From Myxococcota bacterium (GTDB lineage: Bacteria; Myxococcota_A; UBA796; CAJQPC01), in contig JAKLKD010000007.1 of NCBI GenBank assembly GCA_023150845.1, forward strand, positions 1 through 64,000: DNA of 64,000 nt, in the 5' to 3' direction. The first letter of the stretch is position 1; every line of letters starts with the position of its first letter. The notes under the pieces were generated by a model. It was not told the DNA's origin. It searched no databases and worked only from the letters and a program-made list of their open reading frames with translations. Made by a program: the position numbers and the translations under genes. This document shows positions 21,854 to 29,322 of the stretch, one piece after another.

Positions 21854-22300
21854 ATGAGCCGCCGATTCGAGCCGAGCCAGCGCCCCACGAGCGGTGACCG
21901 CCGAGGGTGGGTCGCCCTGGGCTTGCTCTCGGCGGCGGCCTGCGCGCCCACTCCAGAGCTTGGCGAGGGCTTCGTGCCCGCGATGAGCTTCGCGGCAGCC
22001 GCTCAGAACTGCGCGGCGCTGCAGGCGGTGAGCGAGCCGCTCTGCGGAGAGGAGACGTTCCCGGTTCACTGTTGGTGGGCGTCGTCTTACGAAGATGCTG
22101 CGGCCTTTCGGTCAGTCACGGAACGGCCTGCCTTCACCTGCGACGCCGGGATTGGGGTCGCGTTACGGAGTGCATTGGAGCAACGAGTGAGTTGTGAAAT
22201 TGACGAGGATCTCATCATCGCGTCAATTCAATGCAGCCCATTAGACACAGGAGGTGAGTCCACCTGTGCGCCAACATTTTCCTGCTTCGGTGTGCGATGA
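21854..22300 (+). CDS. Array lipoprotein A1 (8-Cys family A)
   Basis: 148 residues; first gene of the alternating array. I chose the ATG at 21854, behind ggagagtctccg, because it opens a signal peptide that ends LLSAAACAP (lipobox Cys). The mature part has eight further cysteines in the pattern NC, PLC, VHC, FTC, SC, QC, TC, SC, with the conserved core CGEETFPVHCWW near residue 70-80. No catalytic motif is present, so a small disulfide-stabilised envelope protein is most likely. Its stop overlaps the start of B1 (ATGA, 22297-22300). About 100 bp of its 5' mature region is nearly identical to A2, which indicates duplication. Function unknown. Confidence 0.88.
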   Translation: MSRRFEPSQRPTSGDRRGWVALGLLSAAACAPTPELGEGFVPAMSFAAAAQNCAALQAVSEPLCGEETFPVHCWWASSYEDAAAFRSVTERPAFTCDAGIGVALRSALEQRVSCEIDEDLIIASIQCSPLDTGGESTCAPTFSCFGVR

Positions 22301-22722
22301 GGCAAAAGAACACGTCTCAGGGGCTGATCTCAGACACAAAACATTCGGCTATCCTCTTGCTCACGATGCTCGGCTCGGTGTTGGGCGGATGTCAGGAGTA
22401 CAACATCCCCCACATTGAGCTCTCAGAGGACGCAGAGCACGCAGCTTACAACTGCGACGTGCTGGCGCTAGCCTCGGACTGGGATTGTTCACCGGAGGAT
22501 CGTGTGATCCCGCTGAGCTGTAGCTGGGGAGACAAAGACCGCTCAGGAGCCGTGACCATAGAAGGCAGCACAGGCTGCGTCACGATGACTTGCGCGGAGG
22601 TGCTCTATCGGGCGGAGAACGAGTGCACCTACGACCAAAACGGAGAGACCGTCCTCCACGACAACACCACCGCCGAGTGCTGCACCGCCGACGATTGCGG
22701 CGTGGAGTTCGGATGTTACTGA
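22297..22722 (+). CDS. Array lipoprotein B1 (10-Cys family B)
   Basis: 141 residues. A lipoprotein signal ends LGSVLGGC. The mature region carries ten more cysteines: YNC, DC, LSC, TGC, TC, EC, the adjacent pair ECC, DDC and the terminal FGCY. The C-terminal motif ECCTADDCGVEFGCY is identical in all four family B proteins here, so it is under strong constraint or gene conversion. The core EDRVIPLSCSWGDKD corresponds in position to EETFPVHCWW of family A. It overlaps A1 by four bases and A2 by ten (22713-22722). Confidence 0.88.
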   Translation: MRQKNTSQGLISDTKHSAILLLTMLGSVLGGCQEYNIPHIELSEDAEHAAYNCDVLALASDWDCSPEDRVIPLSCSWGDKDRSGAVTIEGSTGCVTMTCAEVLYRAENECTYDQNGETVLHDNTTAECCTADDCGVEFGCY

Positions 22723-22762
22723 ACCACCCTCTGCCCTTGGCGCTTTTCGGTGGCCTGCTCTC
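22667..22762 (+). repeat. 96-bp perfect direct repeat, copy 1 (pairs with 24340-24435)
   Basis: It spans the conserved B1 C-terminus, the B1/A2 overlap and the A2 signal peptide. It is identical base for base to 24340-24435 at the B3/truncated-A4 junction. Confidence 0.9.
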
Positions 22763-23135
22763 AGCGTTGGGCTGCGCGCCCACTCCAGAGCTTGGCGAGG
22801 GCTTCGTCCCAGCGTTCAGCTTCGCGGCGGCGGCTCAGAACTGCGCGGCGCTGCAGGCCGTGAGCGAGCCAATCTGCGGGGAGGAGACGTTCCCGGTTCA
22901 CTGCTGGTGGTCGGACTCATCTGACGAATACACTCTGGCTCGCGGGTATACGGAAAAACCAGCCCACACCTGCGACGAAGGGATTGACGCAGCCTTAGAG
23001 ATCGCGAGCTCGCAGGAGGTACGGTGTGAGCTCGATTACGATGCCCTGACCAACTCCTCAACCCAGTGCAGCTACGGTGACACGGGAGGAGATGTCTACT
23101 GTGCCCCAACACTCCTCTGTTTTGGTGTACGATGA
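22713..23135 (+). CDS. Array lipoprotein A2 (family A)
   Basis: 140 residues. The ATG at 22713 sits inside the last codons of B1 (the GGATGTTACTGA context), a ten-base overlap repeated at every B-to-A junction except the last. The signal peptide MLLNHPLPLALFGGLLSALGC ends in a lipobox. The mature part keeps all eight family A cysteines (NC, PIC, VHC, HTC, RC, QC, YC, LC) and the motif CGEETFPVHCWW. It shares PTPELGEGFVPA and NCAALQAVSEP with A1 and diverges in the second half. It overlaps B2 by ATGA. Confidence 0.88.
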   Translation: MLLNHPLPLALFGGLLSALGCAPTPELGEGFVPAFSFAAAAQNCAALQAVSEPICGEETFPVHCWWSDSSDEYTLARGYTEKPAHTCDEGIDAALEIASSQEVRCELDYDALTNSSTQCSYGDTGGDVYCAPTLLCFGVR

Positions 23136-23557
23136 GGCCCGTTCGCACGTTTTCTGCTCCAGTGGAAGTCAAGCCCAAGTCGGCAGGCGCACTGCTCCTC
23201 GTCTTCTGCTGTGTGCTCAGCGGATGCCAGACGTACAACGTCCCTCATATCCAGCGATCCAGGGATGCAGAGCACGCGGCCTACAACTGTGAGGTGATAG
23301 CGTTGGCGTCGGAGTGGAGCTGCCTGCCTGAAGAGCGAGTGATCCCGATAAGCTGTAGCTGGGGTGACGCAGACGTCTTCGGCGCGGTGACCATCGAGGG
23401 CAGCACGGGCTGCGTCACGGTGACCTGTGAGGATGTGCTCACGCGGGCTGAGATTGATTGCTTGAACGACGATGACGGCGAGCCAGTCCTCCGCGACAAC
23501 CCCGCCGATGAGTGCTGCACCGCCGACGACTGCGGCGTGGAGTTCGGATGTTACTGA
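23132..23557 (+). CDS. Array lipoprotein B2 (family B)
   Basis: 141 residues. The lipoprotein signal ends CCVLSGC. The mature sequence is closest to B1 (QTYNVPHI against QEYNIPHI, DAEHAAYNC, TIEGSTGCVT) and keeps the ten-Cys pattern and the invariant ECCTADDCGVEFGCY tail. Substitutions concentrate between about residues 95 and 125. It is coupled to A2 (ATGA at 23132) and to A3 (ten-base overlap, 23548-23557). Confidence 0.88.
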   Translation: MRPVRTFSAPVEVKPKSAGALLLVFCCVLSGCQTYNVPHIQRSRDAEHAAYNCEVIALASEWSCLPEERVIPISCSWGDADVFGAVTIEGSTGCVTVTCEDVLTRAEIDCLNDDDGEPVLRDNPADECCTADDCGVEFGCY

Positions 23558-23973
23558 ACCAACCTCTGCGCTTAGCGCTTCTGGTGGGCCTGCTCTCAGC
23601 GTTGGGCTGCGCGCCCAAGGATACCGACGTTGGCTTTGTCGCCTCAAGCAGCCTCTTCTCAGGCGCCCAGAACTGCATTATGCTTGAGACTATAAGCGTC
23701 GATGTCTGCGCTGGTGAGACCTTCCCGATCCACTGCATCTGGGGAGAGAGCTTCGGCAGATTCGATGGCGCAGGAGGGATCAGCGCGACCTCAGCGCAGA
23801 CCTGTGACGCTGCGTTGGCGCGTGCGGTGCAATTGGCCGCCGAAGAAGGCCTTCTATGTGAGGTCGTGGAGGGCCGTGTCATTGTGTATGAGATTCAATG
23901 TACAGATGAAGACACGGGTGACTCAGGCGCGATGGACAACTGTAGCCCCCTTTGGGTCTGTTCGAACTTATGA
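23548..23973 (+). CDS. Array lipoprotein A3 (family A)
   Basis: 141 residues. The signal peptide (MLLNQPLRLALLVGLLSALGC) is close to that of A2, while the mature part is more divergent (PKDTDVGFVASSSLFSGAQNC). All eight cysteines are retained (NC, VC, IHC, TC, LC, QC, NC, VC), with CAGETFPIHCIW in place of CGEETFPVHCWW. This combination of a conserved signal with a diverged mature domain fits diversifying duplication. It overlaps B3 by ATGA (23970-23973). Confidence 0.88.
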   Translation: MLLNQPLRLALLVGLLSALGCAPKDTDVGFVASSSLFSGAQNCIMLETISVDVCAGETFPIHCIWGESFGRFDGAGGISATSAQTCDAALARAVQLAAEEGLLCEVVEGRVIVYEIQCTDEDTGDSGAMDNCSPLWVCSNL

Positions 23974-24395
23974 ACACCTCCTTCATTCATCTGACCGGGA
24001 CAGTCCGTCCTCATAAGCTCTCGTCTGGTGGCGTCTTGCTGCTGGTGATCACAAGCGTAGCCTGTGCCCCTGAGGATGAGCTTGAGCTCACGCGCTCCCG
24101 CAACGCCGAGGACGCCGCCTACAACTGCGAGCTGCTGGCGATGGCCTCGGACTGGTACTGCCTGCCTGAAGACCGGGTGATCCCGCTGAGCTGTGGCTGG
24201 GGGCAAAAGGATCTTGGCGGCAGCGTGACCATTGAAGGCAACACGGGCTGCGTCACGACGACCTGTGAAGTTGTGCTAGATTTGGTAGAGCGGGACTGCT
24301 TCTACAACCAGAATGGCGAATTCATCCTTCGTGGCGATCCCACCGCCGAGTGCTGCACCGCCGACGATTGCGGCGTGGAGTTCGGATGTTACTGA
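23970..24395 (+). CDS. Array lipoprotein B3 (family B)
   Basis: 141 residues from the ATG at 23970; an upstream GTG at 23952 in the same frame is less likely because the ATGA overlap fits the array pattern. The signal peptide ends ITSVAC. The mature part reads RNAEDAAYNCELLAMASDWYC, closer to B4 than to B1, then the common GCVTTTC and ECCTADDCGVEFGCY. All ten cysteines are present. It ends in the 96-bp repeat shared with B1/A2. Confidence 0.88.
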   Translation: MNTSFIHLTGTVRPHKLSSGGVLLLVITSVACAPEDELELTRSRNAEDAAYNCELLAMASDWYCLPEDRVIPLSCGWGQKDLGGSVTIEGNTGCVTTTCEVVLDLVERDCFYNQNGEFILRGDPTAECCTADDCGVEFGCY

Positions 24396-24435
24396 ACCAC
24401 CCTCTGCCCTTGGCGCTTTTCGGTGGCCTGCTCTC
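24340..24435 (+). repeat. 96-bp perfect direct repeat, copy 2 (pairs with 22667-22762)
   Basis: Identical to 22667-22762; it ends inside the signal peptide of the deleted A copy, just where A2 continues into its mature domain. Confidence 0.9.
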
Positions 24436-24520
24436 GGCGCAGCCCGCACACTGTGAGGAGGGCGACACAGCTCAGGGCCCAGAGTGTGATCTGCAATTTT
24501 ACTGTGGCCGAACCTGGTGA
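24386..24520 (+). pseudogene. Internally deleted family A gene (A4 remnant, 44 codons)
   Basis: An open frame too short for usual gene callers. It starts like A2 (MLLNHPLPLALFGGLLSA), then jumps to QPAHCEEGDTAQGPECDLQFYCGRTW. The second part matches the last three-Cys segment of family A proteins (QC-SYGDTGGDVYC-APTLLC in A2), so about 95 central residues have been lost. The lipobox cysteine is gone. Reading frame and the overlap architecture are kept: a ten-base overlap with B3 and a GTGA overlap with the next gene. It may still be translated and keep downstream coupling intact. Confidence 0.7.
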
Positions 24521-24957
24521 GACCTCTAATGCTGAACAGCGCGAGAGCACCTACCTCATCGGACCGCTCACGATGCGGGTTGACCAAACTGGGTCTGCTC
24601 CTGCTCGCGAGTTGTGTGCCCGAGGACGCAACACCTCGCCTCGTCGCGGCAGACAGTTTTCTGGACGCCGCGCACAACTGTGAGGTGTTGGAGACCCTCA
24701 GCGAATCGATGTGTGGTGACGAGACATACACGGTCTACTGCGAGTGGGTGTATGATGGTCTTGGTGGCGGTGCTGGGGTTACGACCCAACATCCTGCGAC
24801 CACCTGCAACGAGGCGCTCTCTGCCGCCCGTGAGCAAGCCGATCACCTTCGGTGCAGAGTCCGCAACTCCGACGGTGACTTTCCGCCGTTGTGTGAGGAC
24901 CAAGACACAGGCATCTCCTACTATTGTGAACGAATACTTTACTGCCAAAAGCGGTAA
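24517..24957 (+). CDS. Array lipoprotein A5 (family A, divergent)
   Basis: 146 residues from the GTG at 24517, which overlaps the stop of the A4 remnant (GTGA); an ATG four codons later is also possible. The lipoprotein signal ends LLLASC. The mature region VPEDATPRLVAADSFLDAAHNC resembles A3 in layout, and eight cysteines are kept (NC, MC, YC, TC, RC, LC, YC, YC). The core is CGDETYTVYCEW. It is the most divergent family A member and the only one not overlapping the next gene (14 bp gap to B4). Confidence 0.85.
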   Translation: MRPLMLNSARAPTSSDRSRCGLTKLGLLLLASCVPEDATPRLVAADSFLDAAHNCEVLETLSESMCGDETYTVYCEWVYDGLGGGAGVTTQHPATTCNEALSAAREQADHLRCRVRNSDGDFPPLCEDQDTGISYYCERILYCQKR

Positions 24958-24971
24958 GGAGCTCCAAGACG

Positions 24972-25352
24972 ATGTCGATGAACCCAGCTCCCCTCCTGCT
25001 CACGCTGCTCGGCCTGCTCAGCGCGTGCGACGATGGCCCCGAGGTGGTGCGCGCCCACAACGCTGAAGACGCCGCGCTCAACTGCGAGCTGCTGGCGATG
25101 GCCTCAGACTGGTACTGTCTGCCTGAAGAACGAACGATCCCGCTGAGCTGTAGCTGGGGCGACACGAATTTTAACGGCTCGGCGACTATCGAGGGCCGGA
25201 CGGGATGCGTCACGATGACCTGTGATATCGTGATTCGGTGGGCTGAGGAGGAGTGCCTCTACGAGCAGAACGGTAGGACGGCGCTTCTAGATAACGCCAC
25301 GGAAGAATGCTGCACCGCCGACGATTGCGGCGTAGAGTTCGGCTGCTACTGA
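24972..25352 (+). CDS. Array lipoprotein B4 (family B, last gene)
   Basis: 126 residues. The ATG at 24972 follows an RBS (aaggag), the only array gene after A1 with its own clear site; an ATG two codons on is possible. The signal is short (LLLTLLGLLSAC). The mature sequence AHNAEDAALNCELLAMASDWYCLPEERTIPLSC is very close to B3, and the ten-Cys pattern and ECCTADDCGVEFGCY tail are intact. Its stop lies within the last codons of the converging iadA-like gene (7-bp overlap). Confidence 0.88.
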   Translation: MSMNPAPLLLTLLGLLSACDDGPEVVRAHNAEDAALNCELLAMASDWYCLPEERTIPLSCSWGDTNFNGSATIEGRTGCVTMTCDIVIRWAEEECLYEQNGRTALLDNATEECCTADDCGVEFGCY

Positions 25353-26515: not shown

Positions 26516-26648
26516 CGGGAGGTCCGGGGTGAGGGGCGCGCTGAAGGTAATGGGCGGCGGGCTCGGGGGCGAGGGTGCGCAGCGCGGGAGGGGGTGATAA
26601 AACCGCAGGAGCAGCCCGCGCCTCCGCGCGGCGAACCCCGGTGAGAGC

Positions 26649-27749
26649 ATGATCACGCGCCTCTACGTCGACAACGTCGGTCCCCTGGTCAACTTCGAGT
26701 GGCGGCCTGGGCGGCTGAACCTGTTGTTGGGGGAGAATGGGAGTGGGAAGTCGTTTGTGTTGCGCGTGATGGGCGCCGCTCGGTTTCTGTTGGGTGGGGT
26801 GGATTATGAGAGCAAGGCGCCCCCTGACAACCGGACCCGGTGGGACAGCAGAAGAGAGCAGACTCGTGAGCTTGATGTCGTCATCGAGGGGCAACAGTAT
26901 TCGTATTCGGTGATGTTTGATCACGCCGAGGACGATGGGCGGTGGAGACGATGGGTGGTCAAGGAGCGCCTGAGCGTGGATGGCATGCCGCTCTCACAGA
27001 TGGAGGGTGACAAGCTGACCATCTTCGCGGACGATGGAGGTGCGGCTACCACGCTCCCCGTGAGCGTCACACGGTCTGGTGTAGGAATTATTCCGCCCAG
27101 CCACGAATACAAACGTCTCACGCGCTTCAAGACCTGGATGCGTAAAGGATTGCACTCTTTCGCGCCGATCCCCCAGATGATGGCCGCGGAGGTTAAGGGC
27201 TCGCCCGAACATCCAGACCACATCCTGAGTGACTTCGCCTCATGGTACGCCTCCTGGTTGCCAAGAAACATCGGTCCTGCGATGCGCGCCCAGAAGGCCA
27301 TCGCTGAGATCATCCCTGGCTTTGAGTCCCTCCAGGTGAGCCCCAACGGCGTGAAGCTTCAGGCCACCTTTCATGCACACAAAGGAACGCCCGCGCACAG
27401 CATCGACTTCAATCATCTCTCCGACGGCCAACGCCAGCTCTGCGCCCTCTACGTCCTGCGCCACGCCTACATCCAGCCGGGGCACACCTTCCTCATCGAC
27501 GAGCCCACCAACTTCGTCTCTCTCCGCGAGATTCAGCCCTGGCTGAACGAGGTCATCGACGCCACCGACGTGCCGAACGGCCCCCAAGTCTTCATCGTGA
27601 GCCATCACCCGGAGATCATCGACCAGCTCGCGCCGCAGCACGGCGTGCAGTTCTTCCGCGACGGCGGCCCCACACGCATCGCCCCGTTCAAGGGCGCTCC
27701 GGCGCTCACGGCCTCGGAGACCGTCGCCCGTGGGTGGGGCGATGAGTGA
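26649..27749 (+). CDS. AAA/ABC-type ATPase (AAA15/21-like), first paralogue of a putative defence operon
   Basis: 366 residues. SMC/OLD-like ATPase core: Walker A LGENGSGKS (Lys34), ABC signature LSDGQRQ (257-263), Walker B FLIDEPTNF (Asp284, Glu285) and switch region IVSHHPE (His319-320). The insertion between the Walker motifs (about 50-230) is specific and contains no nuclease motif. No TOPRIM domain is fused to it; the next gene supplies one. It overlaps that gene by eight bases. The first half has clearly lower G+C and different codon use from the surrounding genes, suggesting horizontal transfer. Related ATPases act as phage sensors or regulators in defence systems; that role here is inference. 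Confidence 0.85.
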   Translation: MITRLYVDNVGPLVNFEWRPGRLNLLLGENGSGKSFVLRVMGAARFLLGGVDYESKAPPDNRTRWDSRREQTRELDVVIEGQQYSYSVMFDHAEDDGRWRRWVVKERLSVDGMPLSQMEGDKLTIFADDGGAATTLPVSVTRSGVGIIPPSHEYKRLTRFKTWMRKGLHSFAPIPQMMAAEVKGSPEHPDHILSDFASWYASWLPRNIGPAMRAQKAIAEIIPGFESLQVSPNGVKLQATFHAHKGTPAHSIDFNHLSDGQRQLCALYVLRHAYIQPGHTFLIDEPTNFVSLREIQPWLNEVIDATDVPNGPQVFIVSHHPEIIDQLAPQHGVQFFRDGGPTRIAPFKGAPALTASETVARGWGDE

Positions 27750-28329
27750 TGGGGTTCAGTGGATCCTCTTGGGCGAAGACAAACAGGCGGTCACGTTCTT
27801 GCGGCGCCTTGTCGTCGCCATGGGCGCGAACGCCCGGCGGGTGATCGAGCTCCCCGTCGCGGCGACCACTACGGGCGCCTGCGGCTCTCAGTACGTCGTA
27901 GCCCGCTACGCCAGGGAGCTCCCCGCGTTTCGGGCCAACGCGGCGCGAATGAGCACGAAGCTCCTGGTCCACATCGACGCTGACGATCGCACAGTCCTCC
28001 AGCGCCAGCGAGAGCTCGCCCAGGCCTGCGCTGACGCGGGCCTGCCTCCACGCGGGCCCAACGAGGCCATCGCGCTCCTCATCCCCAAACGAAACTTGGA
28101 GACCTGGATCGCCTCCTTGGACCCCAGCCAGCATGACGCCCAGCGCGGCGCCGACCCCACCCAACCTCTGGAGGAGCGAGTGTTTAGGCACCTCACGGAG
28201 GAGAGCGGCTGCTCCGGCGCCGTCGAGGCCCTGGCCCGCCACCTCAGATCCCGCGCCCCCGCCCCGCTCATCCCCGACCTGCCCTCCTTAGACGAGGCCG
28301 TCGTCGAGCTCCGCCGGGTCTGGCCCTGA
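27742..28329 (+). CDS. Small TOPRIM-like protein, putative nuclease effector
   Basis: 195 residues from the ATG at 27742, inside the end of the first ATPase gene. The N-terminus WILLGEDKQAVTFL has the conserved Glu12 of a TOPRIM fold, and KLLVHIDADD gives the Asp79-x-Asp81 metal pair. A later IPKRNLETWI resembles the segment found after the DxD in DUF4276/DUF4435-type TOPRIM proteins, but I cannot fix the family. TOPRIM domains cut nucleic acids in OLD/Gabija-type and PARIS-type defence. The overlap with the upstream ATPase and a 3-bp gap to the second ATPase imply fixed stoichiometry or a complex. Confidence 0.65.
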   Translation: MSDGVQWILLGEDKQAVTFLRRLVVAMGANARRVIELPVAATTTGACGSQYVVARYARELPAFRANAARMSTKLLVHIDADDRTVLQRQRELAQACADAGLPPRGPNEAIALLIPKRNLETWIASLDPSQHDAQRGADPTQPLEERVFRHLTEESGCSGAVEALARHLRSRAPAPLIPDLPSLDEAVVELRRVWP

Positions 28330-28332
28330 GCC

Positions 28333-29322
28333 ATGCTCACCCGCGTCCTCCAGCAGAACATCGGCCCCTTCTTGCACAACGAGCGCCGTCTCGGCCCCCT
28401 CACGCTCATCCACGGCGAGGCCGGCAGCGGCAAGACCTCCATCGTCGGCGTGGCGAACACGCTGTGGGCCTTCTGTTTTCGCCCCTCCGACCTCACGGCC
28501 AAGGTGCCCCTGGACTCGGTGACCCGGTGGAGCGGCCTCACCGCCCAGCGCCGAGAGATCGACGTGTCGCTCAACGGGGCGACCTTCACCCACGTCTGCG
28601 TCACCGAGAACGACGAGACGACGGGGCGCCGCCGCCGCTGGTTCGCGGAGGAGACGCTGAGCGTTGACGGCGTGCCCCTGCTCCGCCGCGAGGGTGACAC
28701 CCTGCATGTCCTCGCCGACGACGACGGCCCGGCCTCGCGCCTCCCCGCCCACCCCGGCCTCTCCGCCTTGACCCTCACCCCGCCCGAGCACCGCCGCGCC
28801 TGGACCTACCTCACCTGGCTGCGGGACCGGCTCTTCGTCTTCGCGCCGCTGCCCCACGTCATCGGCGCGAGCGTTCCACTCGACACAGTCCGACCGGCCC
28901 GGCCCAAGGAGGAGTGTGAAGACTTCGCGCCCTGGTTCGCCGGGTGGAGCGCCGCAAACCCCGCCGAGGCCCAGGCCCTGAACCTGGCCCTGCCGGGGAT
29001 CTTGCCCGGCGCCGTGGCCCTTGAGGTGGCGGGGGAGCGGCTCGTGGTGCGGTTTGGGGCCCGCGGGGAGCGCCCGGGCTTTGTGCTGGGCTTCGACCGC
29101 CTCTCCGACGGGGAGCGGCAGCGGGTCGTGCTGGAGGCCCTGGCGCTGGCGTTCTTGCGCCCCGGCGTGACGACGCTCTGGGACGAGCCCGAGCGCTTCT
29201 TGTCGGCCCGGGACGTGGGCCCCTGGATTGACCGGGCGCTCGCGGCGGCGGCGGCGCCGGGGGGGCCCCAGGTCGTGTGGGCGAGCCAACACCCCGAGGT
29301 GGCGCGGCGGCTCCCTCGCTGA
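28333..29322 (+). CDS. AAA/ABC-type ATPase, second paralogue of the putative defence operon
   Basis: 329 residues, collinear with the 26649-27749 protein over its whole length: Walker A HGEAGSGKT again has Lys34, the signature LSDGERQ again starts at 257, and Walker B TTLWDEPERF again has Asp284 and Glu285. Shared blocks outside the ATPase motifs include TRW near 64, LSVDG near 110 and PLPHVIG/PIPQMMA near 173. The switch region is WASQHPE: the first His of the paralogue's SHH is Gln here, so its ATPase cycle may be impaired. G+C is higher than in the first paralogue. A heterodimer with the first ATPase is the simplest reading. Confidence 0.83.
   Translation: MLTRVLQQNIGPFLHNERRLGPLTLIHGEAGSGKTSIVGVANTLWAFCFRPSDLTAKVPLDSVTRWSGLTAQRREIDVSLNGATFTHVCVTENDETTGRRRRWFAEETLSVDGVPLLRREGDTLHVLADDDGPASRLPAHPGLSALTLTPPEHRRAWTYLTWLRDRLFVFAPLPHVIGASVPLDTVRPARPKEECEDFAPWFAGWSAANPAEAQALNLALPGILPGAVALEVAGERLVVRFGARGERPGFVLGFDRLSDGERQRVVLEALALAFLRPGVTTLWDEPERFLSARDVGPWIDRALAAAAAPGGPQVVWASQHPEVARRLPR

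Follow-up and report, generated by a model that had tools for sequence, protein, structure and literature searches.

Several described systems pair an ABC ATPase with a TOPRIM protein. In PARIS (AriA and AriB; OLD class 4), the ATPase and the TOPRIM nuclease are separate proteins: three AriB are kept sequestered by a hexamer of AriA, a ratio reported as 6:3, until they are released in response to a phage protein; as dimers, they then cut tRNA (PMC12409363). RloA/RloB and AbiL likewise consist of an ABC ATPase gene followed by a TOPRIM gene (PF13707), and an RloB-type TOPRIM toxin with an AAA ATPase has been validated as a toxin-neutraliser pair (PMC10440598). ABC ATPase and TOPRIM also cooperate in Gabija and in OLD classes 1 to 3, but they are fused there in one protein. 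HEC-01, an Hma-embedded candidate in PADLOC, combines an ATPase with a DUF4276 protein (PF14103). Hma-embedded candidates have been named by the operon-embedding logic that we also use below (PMC12988326), and TOPRIM-linked OLD-ABC modules in BREX operons have been found by embedding as well (PMC12839542).

Here we describe a three-gene operon, A1-T-A2, in a 64,000-nucleotide stretch of Myxococcota DNA (the window), which resembles these pairs and carries a second ATPase gene. We consider it probable that the operon encodes an abortive-infection-type phage-defence module, in which A1 would restrain the TOPRIM toxin T and A2 would act as a specialised partner.

Genes of the operon and asymmetry of the two ATPases

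All three genes lie on the plus strand, and their frames, lengths and coordinates were correct when re-derived (Table 1). The ATG of T is located at 27742 and the stop codon of A1 ends at 27749, giving an 8-bp overlap. The stop codon of T, with its last base at 28329, is separated by 3 bp from the start of A2 at 28333. The preliminary description had given the span of the operon, the overlap and the gap, together with Lys34, a signature at 257 and Asp284-Glu285 in the ATPases and Glu12 and a DxD at 79 to 81 in T, and every one of them was found in the sequence. A1 is separated by an intergenic stretch from a divergent amidohydrolase gene on the minus strand, whose start we took to be at about 26515; a consensus scan of this stretch found no plus-strand promoter. 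On the other side, the operon is followed by a gene for a large MYXO-CTERM-like surface protein, and no recognisable defence island was seen around this copy of A1-T-A2.

Table 1. Features of the A1-T-A2 locus (positions in the window)
Feature	Coordinates	Strand	Length	Motifs or basis
A1, OLD/Rad50/PtuA-like ABC ATPase	26649..27749	+	366 aa	Intact Walker A, signature LSDGQ, Walker B, H-loop SHHP (318-321), C-terminal tail (~328-366)
T, RloB/DUF4276-like TOPRIM-type protein, probable nuclease toxin	27742..28329	+	195 aa	Glu12, Asp79-Ala-Asp81, E120-T-W122
A2, diverged paralogue of A1	28333..29322	+	329 aa	Walker A and Walker B kept, signature LSDGE, SQHP (318-321), C-terminal tail absent
Intergenic stretch, presumed promoter region of the operon	26516..26648	.		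Gene layout

A1 matched PF13304 (3.8e-14) and, among the PADLOC models, AriA, mad3, AbiLi and HEC-01A (5e-17 to 1e-10), with AriA as the best (5e-17); the mad3 model matched all 16 of the 16 members of the ATPase family. A Foldseek search placed the AlphaFold2 model of A1 (pLDDT 90.3) nearest to Rad50 and to the Septu and retron protein PtuA (E of about 1e-13 to 1e-10). With its Walker A, signature and Walker B motifs, its Rad50/PtuA fold and its PF13304 match, A1 has the features of an ABC ATPase.

An alignment of 331 residues showed 38% identity between A1 and A2 (E = 2e-73), and both have Lys34, the LSDG signature at 257 and Asp284-Glu285. Their equal motif spacing is explained by this homology, that is, by duplication, which rules out an independent coincidence. 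The two ATPases are nevertheless not equivalent. The residue that follows Ser318 is a histidine in A1 and in 12/12 relatives from outside the genus (SHHP), which is the H-loop histidine of ABC proteins, whereas both known copies of A2 have a glutamine (SQHP). In addition, the alignment showed a C-terminal tail in A1 and the same 12 relatives that is missing from A2 in both genomes carrying it, and no frameshifted remnant of the tail was found downstream of A2. This asymmetry had been missed in the preliminary description. A1 and A2 grouped as a single clade (support 100/100) in a tree that also contained 12 ATPases of other genomes; the stem of A2 was four times longer than that of A1 (1.18 versus 0.29 changes per site). 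By these comparisons, A2 is a rapidly evolving paralogue that arose in this genus when the ATPase gene was duplicated downstream of T.

The TOPRIM-type protein

Across 14 aligned members of the T family, E12, D13, D79, D81, R88, P115, T121 and W122 are kept. In the AlphaFold2 model of T (pLDDT 87), Glu12 stands directly after strand 1 and the DxD motif after strand 3, which is the TOPRIM order. Pfam, NCBIfam and PHROGs yielded no family for T, and no significant match was obtained when solved structures were searched by sequence with either T or its alignment as the query. When profiles were compared directly with hhalign, T aligned with RloB (probability 91%, E = 1e-6) and with HEC-01B/DUF4276 (86%, E = 5e-6), both being single-comparison E-values, and the Glu, DxD and ExW motifs were in register in the two alignments. 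RloB and DUF4276 scored 88% against each other, and the negative control, T against the ATPases, scored 0.15%. Furthermore, the HEC-01B model gave weak but recurring matches over the T members, the best at 4e-5 and T itself at 1.4e-4, and among viral models Foldseek ranked an RloB-like protein first for the T model (probability 0.96, E = 0.011).

Taken together, sequence profiles and the predicted model give good, if not final, confidence that T is of the TOPRIM type and distantly related to RloB and DUF4276; on its profile matches, it belongs to an uncurated Myxococcota family linked to these two. The arrangement first proposed, two ABC ATPases flanking a TOPRIM-type protein, is thus backed by PF13304, by the motifs, and by the topology of the T model and the profile comparisons. 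Motifs, topology and profiles also speak for the TOPRIM fold itself, but the Foldseek search of the PDB produced only generic Rossmann-like folds and no significant match, so that the fold is less than certain.

Conservation of A2 and genomic context of the relatives

A second species of the genus, represented by a Myxococcota MAG (G004, loci L002/L037), keeps all three genes, with identities to the window of about 92% for A1, 88% for T and 86% for A2. An assembly artefact is ruled out by this second occurrence. A contig scan of the genomes revealed no three-gene carrier besides this sister species. Between the two species, dN/dS for A1, T and A2 was 0.12, 0.25 and 0.33, respectively, by NG86 and 0.09, 0.10 and 0.06 by YN00, the YN00 estimate for A2 involving a dS of 1.4 that is out of line with the others. 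On these codon comparisons, all three genes are under purifying selection. The operon diverges faster than the adjacent amidohydrolase gene (NG86 dS of 0.32 to 0.36 versus 0.10); identity is 94 to 99% in the upstream flank, 75 to 94% in the operon and 86 to 95% in the downstream surface-protein gene. A1 and the family's ATPase genes at the 11 loci measured have a lower GC content than the DNA around them, whereas that of A2 is host-like.

Two further differences were seen between the species. The sister species carries another pair, an AAA_21 ATPase with a DUF4276-like protein (L002, 2271-4376, minus strand), about 2.3 kb from the operon, where the window has none. Conversely, positions 22297-25352 of the window (plus strand) hold tandem small genes for Cys-rich, lipoprotein-like proteins of two alternating families, of about 126 to 153 aa each. 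As the sister species has only about 70 bp between the conserved flanks at this site, we interpret the array as a strain-variable insertion.

These data bear on the function of A2. One alternative is that A1 and T form the working module and that A2 stands apart from A1 as a homomeric sensor or decoy, also restraining T but responding to other triggers, with no mixed complex. The retained Walker A, signature and Walker B motifs and the purifying selection are in line with such a role, and the fast stem would fit a sensor surface that shifts its specificity; however, an autonomous T-restraining ATPase with neither the C-terminal tail nor the H-loop histidine would be odd, and we regard this explanation as unlikely. 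Still weaker is the idea that A2 is a decaying, functionless duplicate, as its shortening, lost H-loop and long branch might suggest: its frame is open in two species at about 86% identity, its motifs are conserved and its dN/dS is low, the change from His to Gln is common to both copies and hence not random, and its GC content is host-like, which together make decay improbable. We prefer to see A2 as a partner of A1.

The T family was then searched with a profile built from three members in 379 Myxococcota genomes, the search being confined to this phylum. Matches were obtained in 15 genomes. Setting aside the two genomes of the genus itself and one marginal match (G016, E = 6e-4 in a 1225-aa frame) left 12 loci outside the genus and a patchy distribution over about 14 of the 379 genomes. 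In all 12 loci, exactly one ATPase gene lies directly upstream of T, mostly overlapping it, in G223 by 8 bp as in the window. Among the genomes searched, the three-gene form was thus found only in this genus (n = 2). A plasmid search yielded no convincing relative of T, and with A1 as the query only a few distant ATPases were obtained; no TOPRIM-like gene is annotated after one of these, the A1 relative on a Dolichospermum plasmid.

Three of the 12 relatives are located inside defence operons, in the orders HmaA-HmaB-ATPase-T-HmaC (G332), BrxC/PglY-ATPase-T-PglX (G021, L035) and DpdE-like helicase-ATPase-T-DrmMI/IIG-type methylase-GmrSD-like enzyme (G059); the other nine were not seen in any recognised defence operon. 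This embedding of three relatives makes a role in defence likely and sustains the function first suggested for the locus.

A non-defence function, in which an OLD-like ATPase-nuclease pair would serve DNA repair or cell-cycle control, also has points in its favour. Such a role has been reported for Cran1, an archaeal ATPase of the OLD family (PMC12796447). In addition, the A1 model is similar to Rad50, most relatives were not seen in recognised defence operons, and the genes next to the operon in the window encode metabolic or surface proteins. Nevertheless, the patchy distribution, the insertion within three different defence operons and the divergence of the operon, faster than that of its upstream flank, argue against it, and we hold it to be very unlikely.

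Some further features of the surroundings come from gene names given by inspection. In G332, ParB-like and serine-recombinase-like genes (L067, 5729-8115) stand upstream of its Hma operon and suggest a mobile island. In G340 (L030, 4069-6896) and G305 (L031, 1551-6594), the ATPase-T pair stands beside genes likely involved in cyanophycin metabolism, and in G340 a truncated copy of an isoaspartyl-peptidase-like gene after the pair suggests insertion by duplication. The amidohydrolase adjoining the operon of the window is isoaspartyl-dipeptidase-like, and its relatives also neighbour cyanophycin-type genes.

Possible mechanism and comparison with known systems

In the phage-defence module that we propose, T would be a metal-dependent TOPRIM nuclease whose target, by analogy with AriB and the RloB-type toxins, would more likely be tRNA or another RNA than DNA. 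The ABC ATPase A1 would bind T and keep it silent, and would also sense infection, again by analogy. A phage trigger or a change of ATP state would open the ATPase assembly and free T, which would probably dimerise and cut nucleic acid, so that growth stops before the phage spreads.

The two-gene module is well supported; a heteromer of the two ATPases is what we infer from their paralogy and asymmetry, which make it plausible. It is well known that ABC proteins can form asymmetric dimers in which one ATP site is degenerate, for example, with TAP1. An A1:A2 head dimer would similarly have one canonical ATP site and one without the H-loop histidine. More tentatively, and with somewhat less than even confidence, we suggest that this heterodimer is obligate, that its one catalytic and one degenerate site gate the toxin, and that holding the toxin would thereby be separated from reading the trigger. 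Since the tail of the toxin-paired ATPases is present only on A1, each heterodimer may hold one T, which would fit the 6:3 ratio of PARIS (PMC12409363).

What such an operon could offer follows from PARIS, where three toxins are bound by one homohexamer of the ATPase and subunits that are chemically identical must therefore act differently. The diverged A1 and A2 would let mutagenesis assign toxin binding, ATP hydrolysis and the reading of the phage to individual subunits, and the duplicated, degenerate A2 could show how an ATPase sensor divides its labour.

Profile searches, including those with PADLOC and Pfam, gave no confident match of the operon to any named system, in agreement with the preliminary description. 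PARIS differs in having a single ATPase gene; T had no match to AriB/DUF4435, and PF14491 had none in the genome of the window (G000). The UvrD-like helicase GajB of Gabija and a retron partner are both absent, and no helicase gene is found in the A1-T-A2 operon. One relative of the module is Hma-embedded like HEC-01, but T has no PF14103 match and HEC-01A is not the best model for A1; moreover, the HEC-01 pair seen at L058 is without a second ATPase, unlike the operon of the window. The BREX-embedded modules correspond to the embedding seen in G021, and the accessible part of their report describes no duplicated ATPase (PMC12839542). With RloAB and AbiL, the gene order is shared, and T aligns with RloB over the Glu, DxD and ExW motifs and has an RloB-like protein as its top structural match; however, T falls below the curated cut-off of PF13707, and two paralogous ATPases flank the toxin here. 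The same genome holds a true RloA/RloB pair, a 444-aa ATPase followed by a 257-aa RloB (G000:C152:73606-74130, L079), which was the only PF13707 match in that genome, the A1-T-A2 locus giving none.

No ATPase-TOPRIM-ATPase operon was found in the literature, although coverage was incomplete and a prior description is possible. The novelty first claimed for the arrangement stands for the three-gene form, in one genus, but not for its core, which is of the known two-gene kind. Indeed, as all 12 relatives have one ATPase with T, the two-gene core represents a new family of the PARIS/AbiL/RloAB/HEC-01 kind. What is new is thus an uncurated Myxococcota family of TOPRIM-type proteins found in Hma, BREX and Dpd/DISARM-like operons: the ATPase-TOPRIM pair is already known in kind, and the form with a duplicated ATPase is new and seen in one genus.
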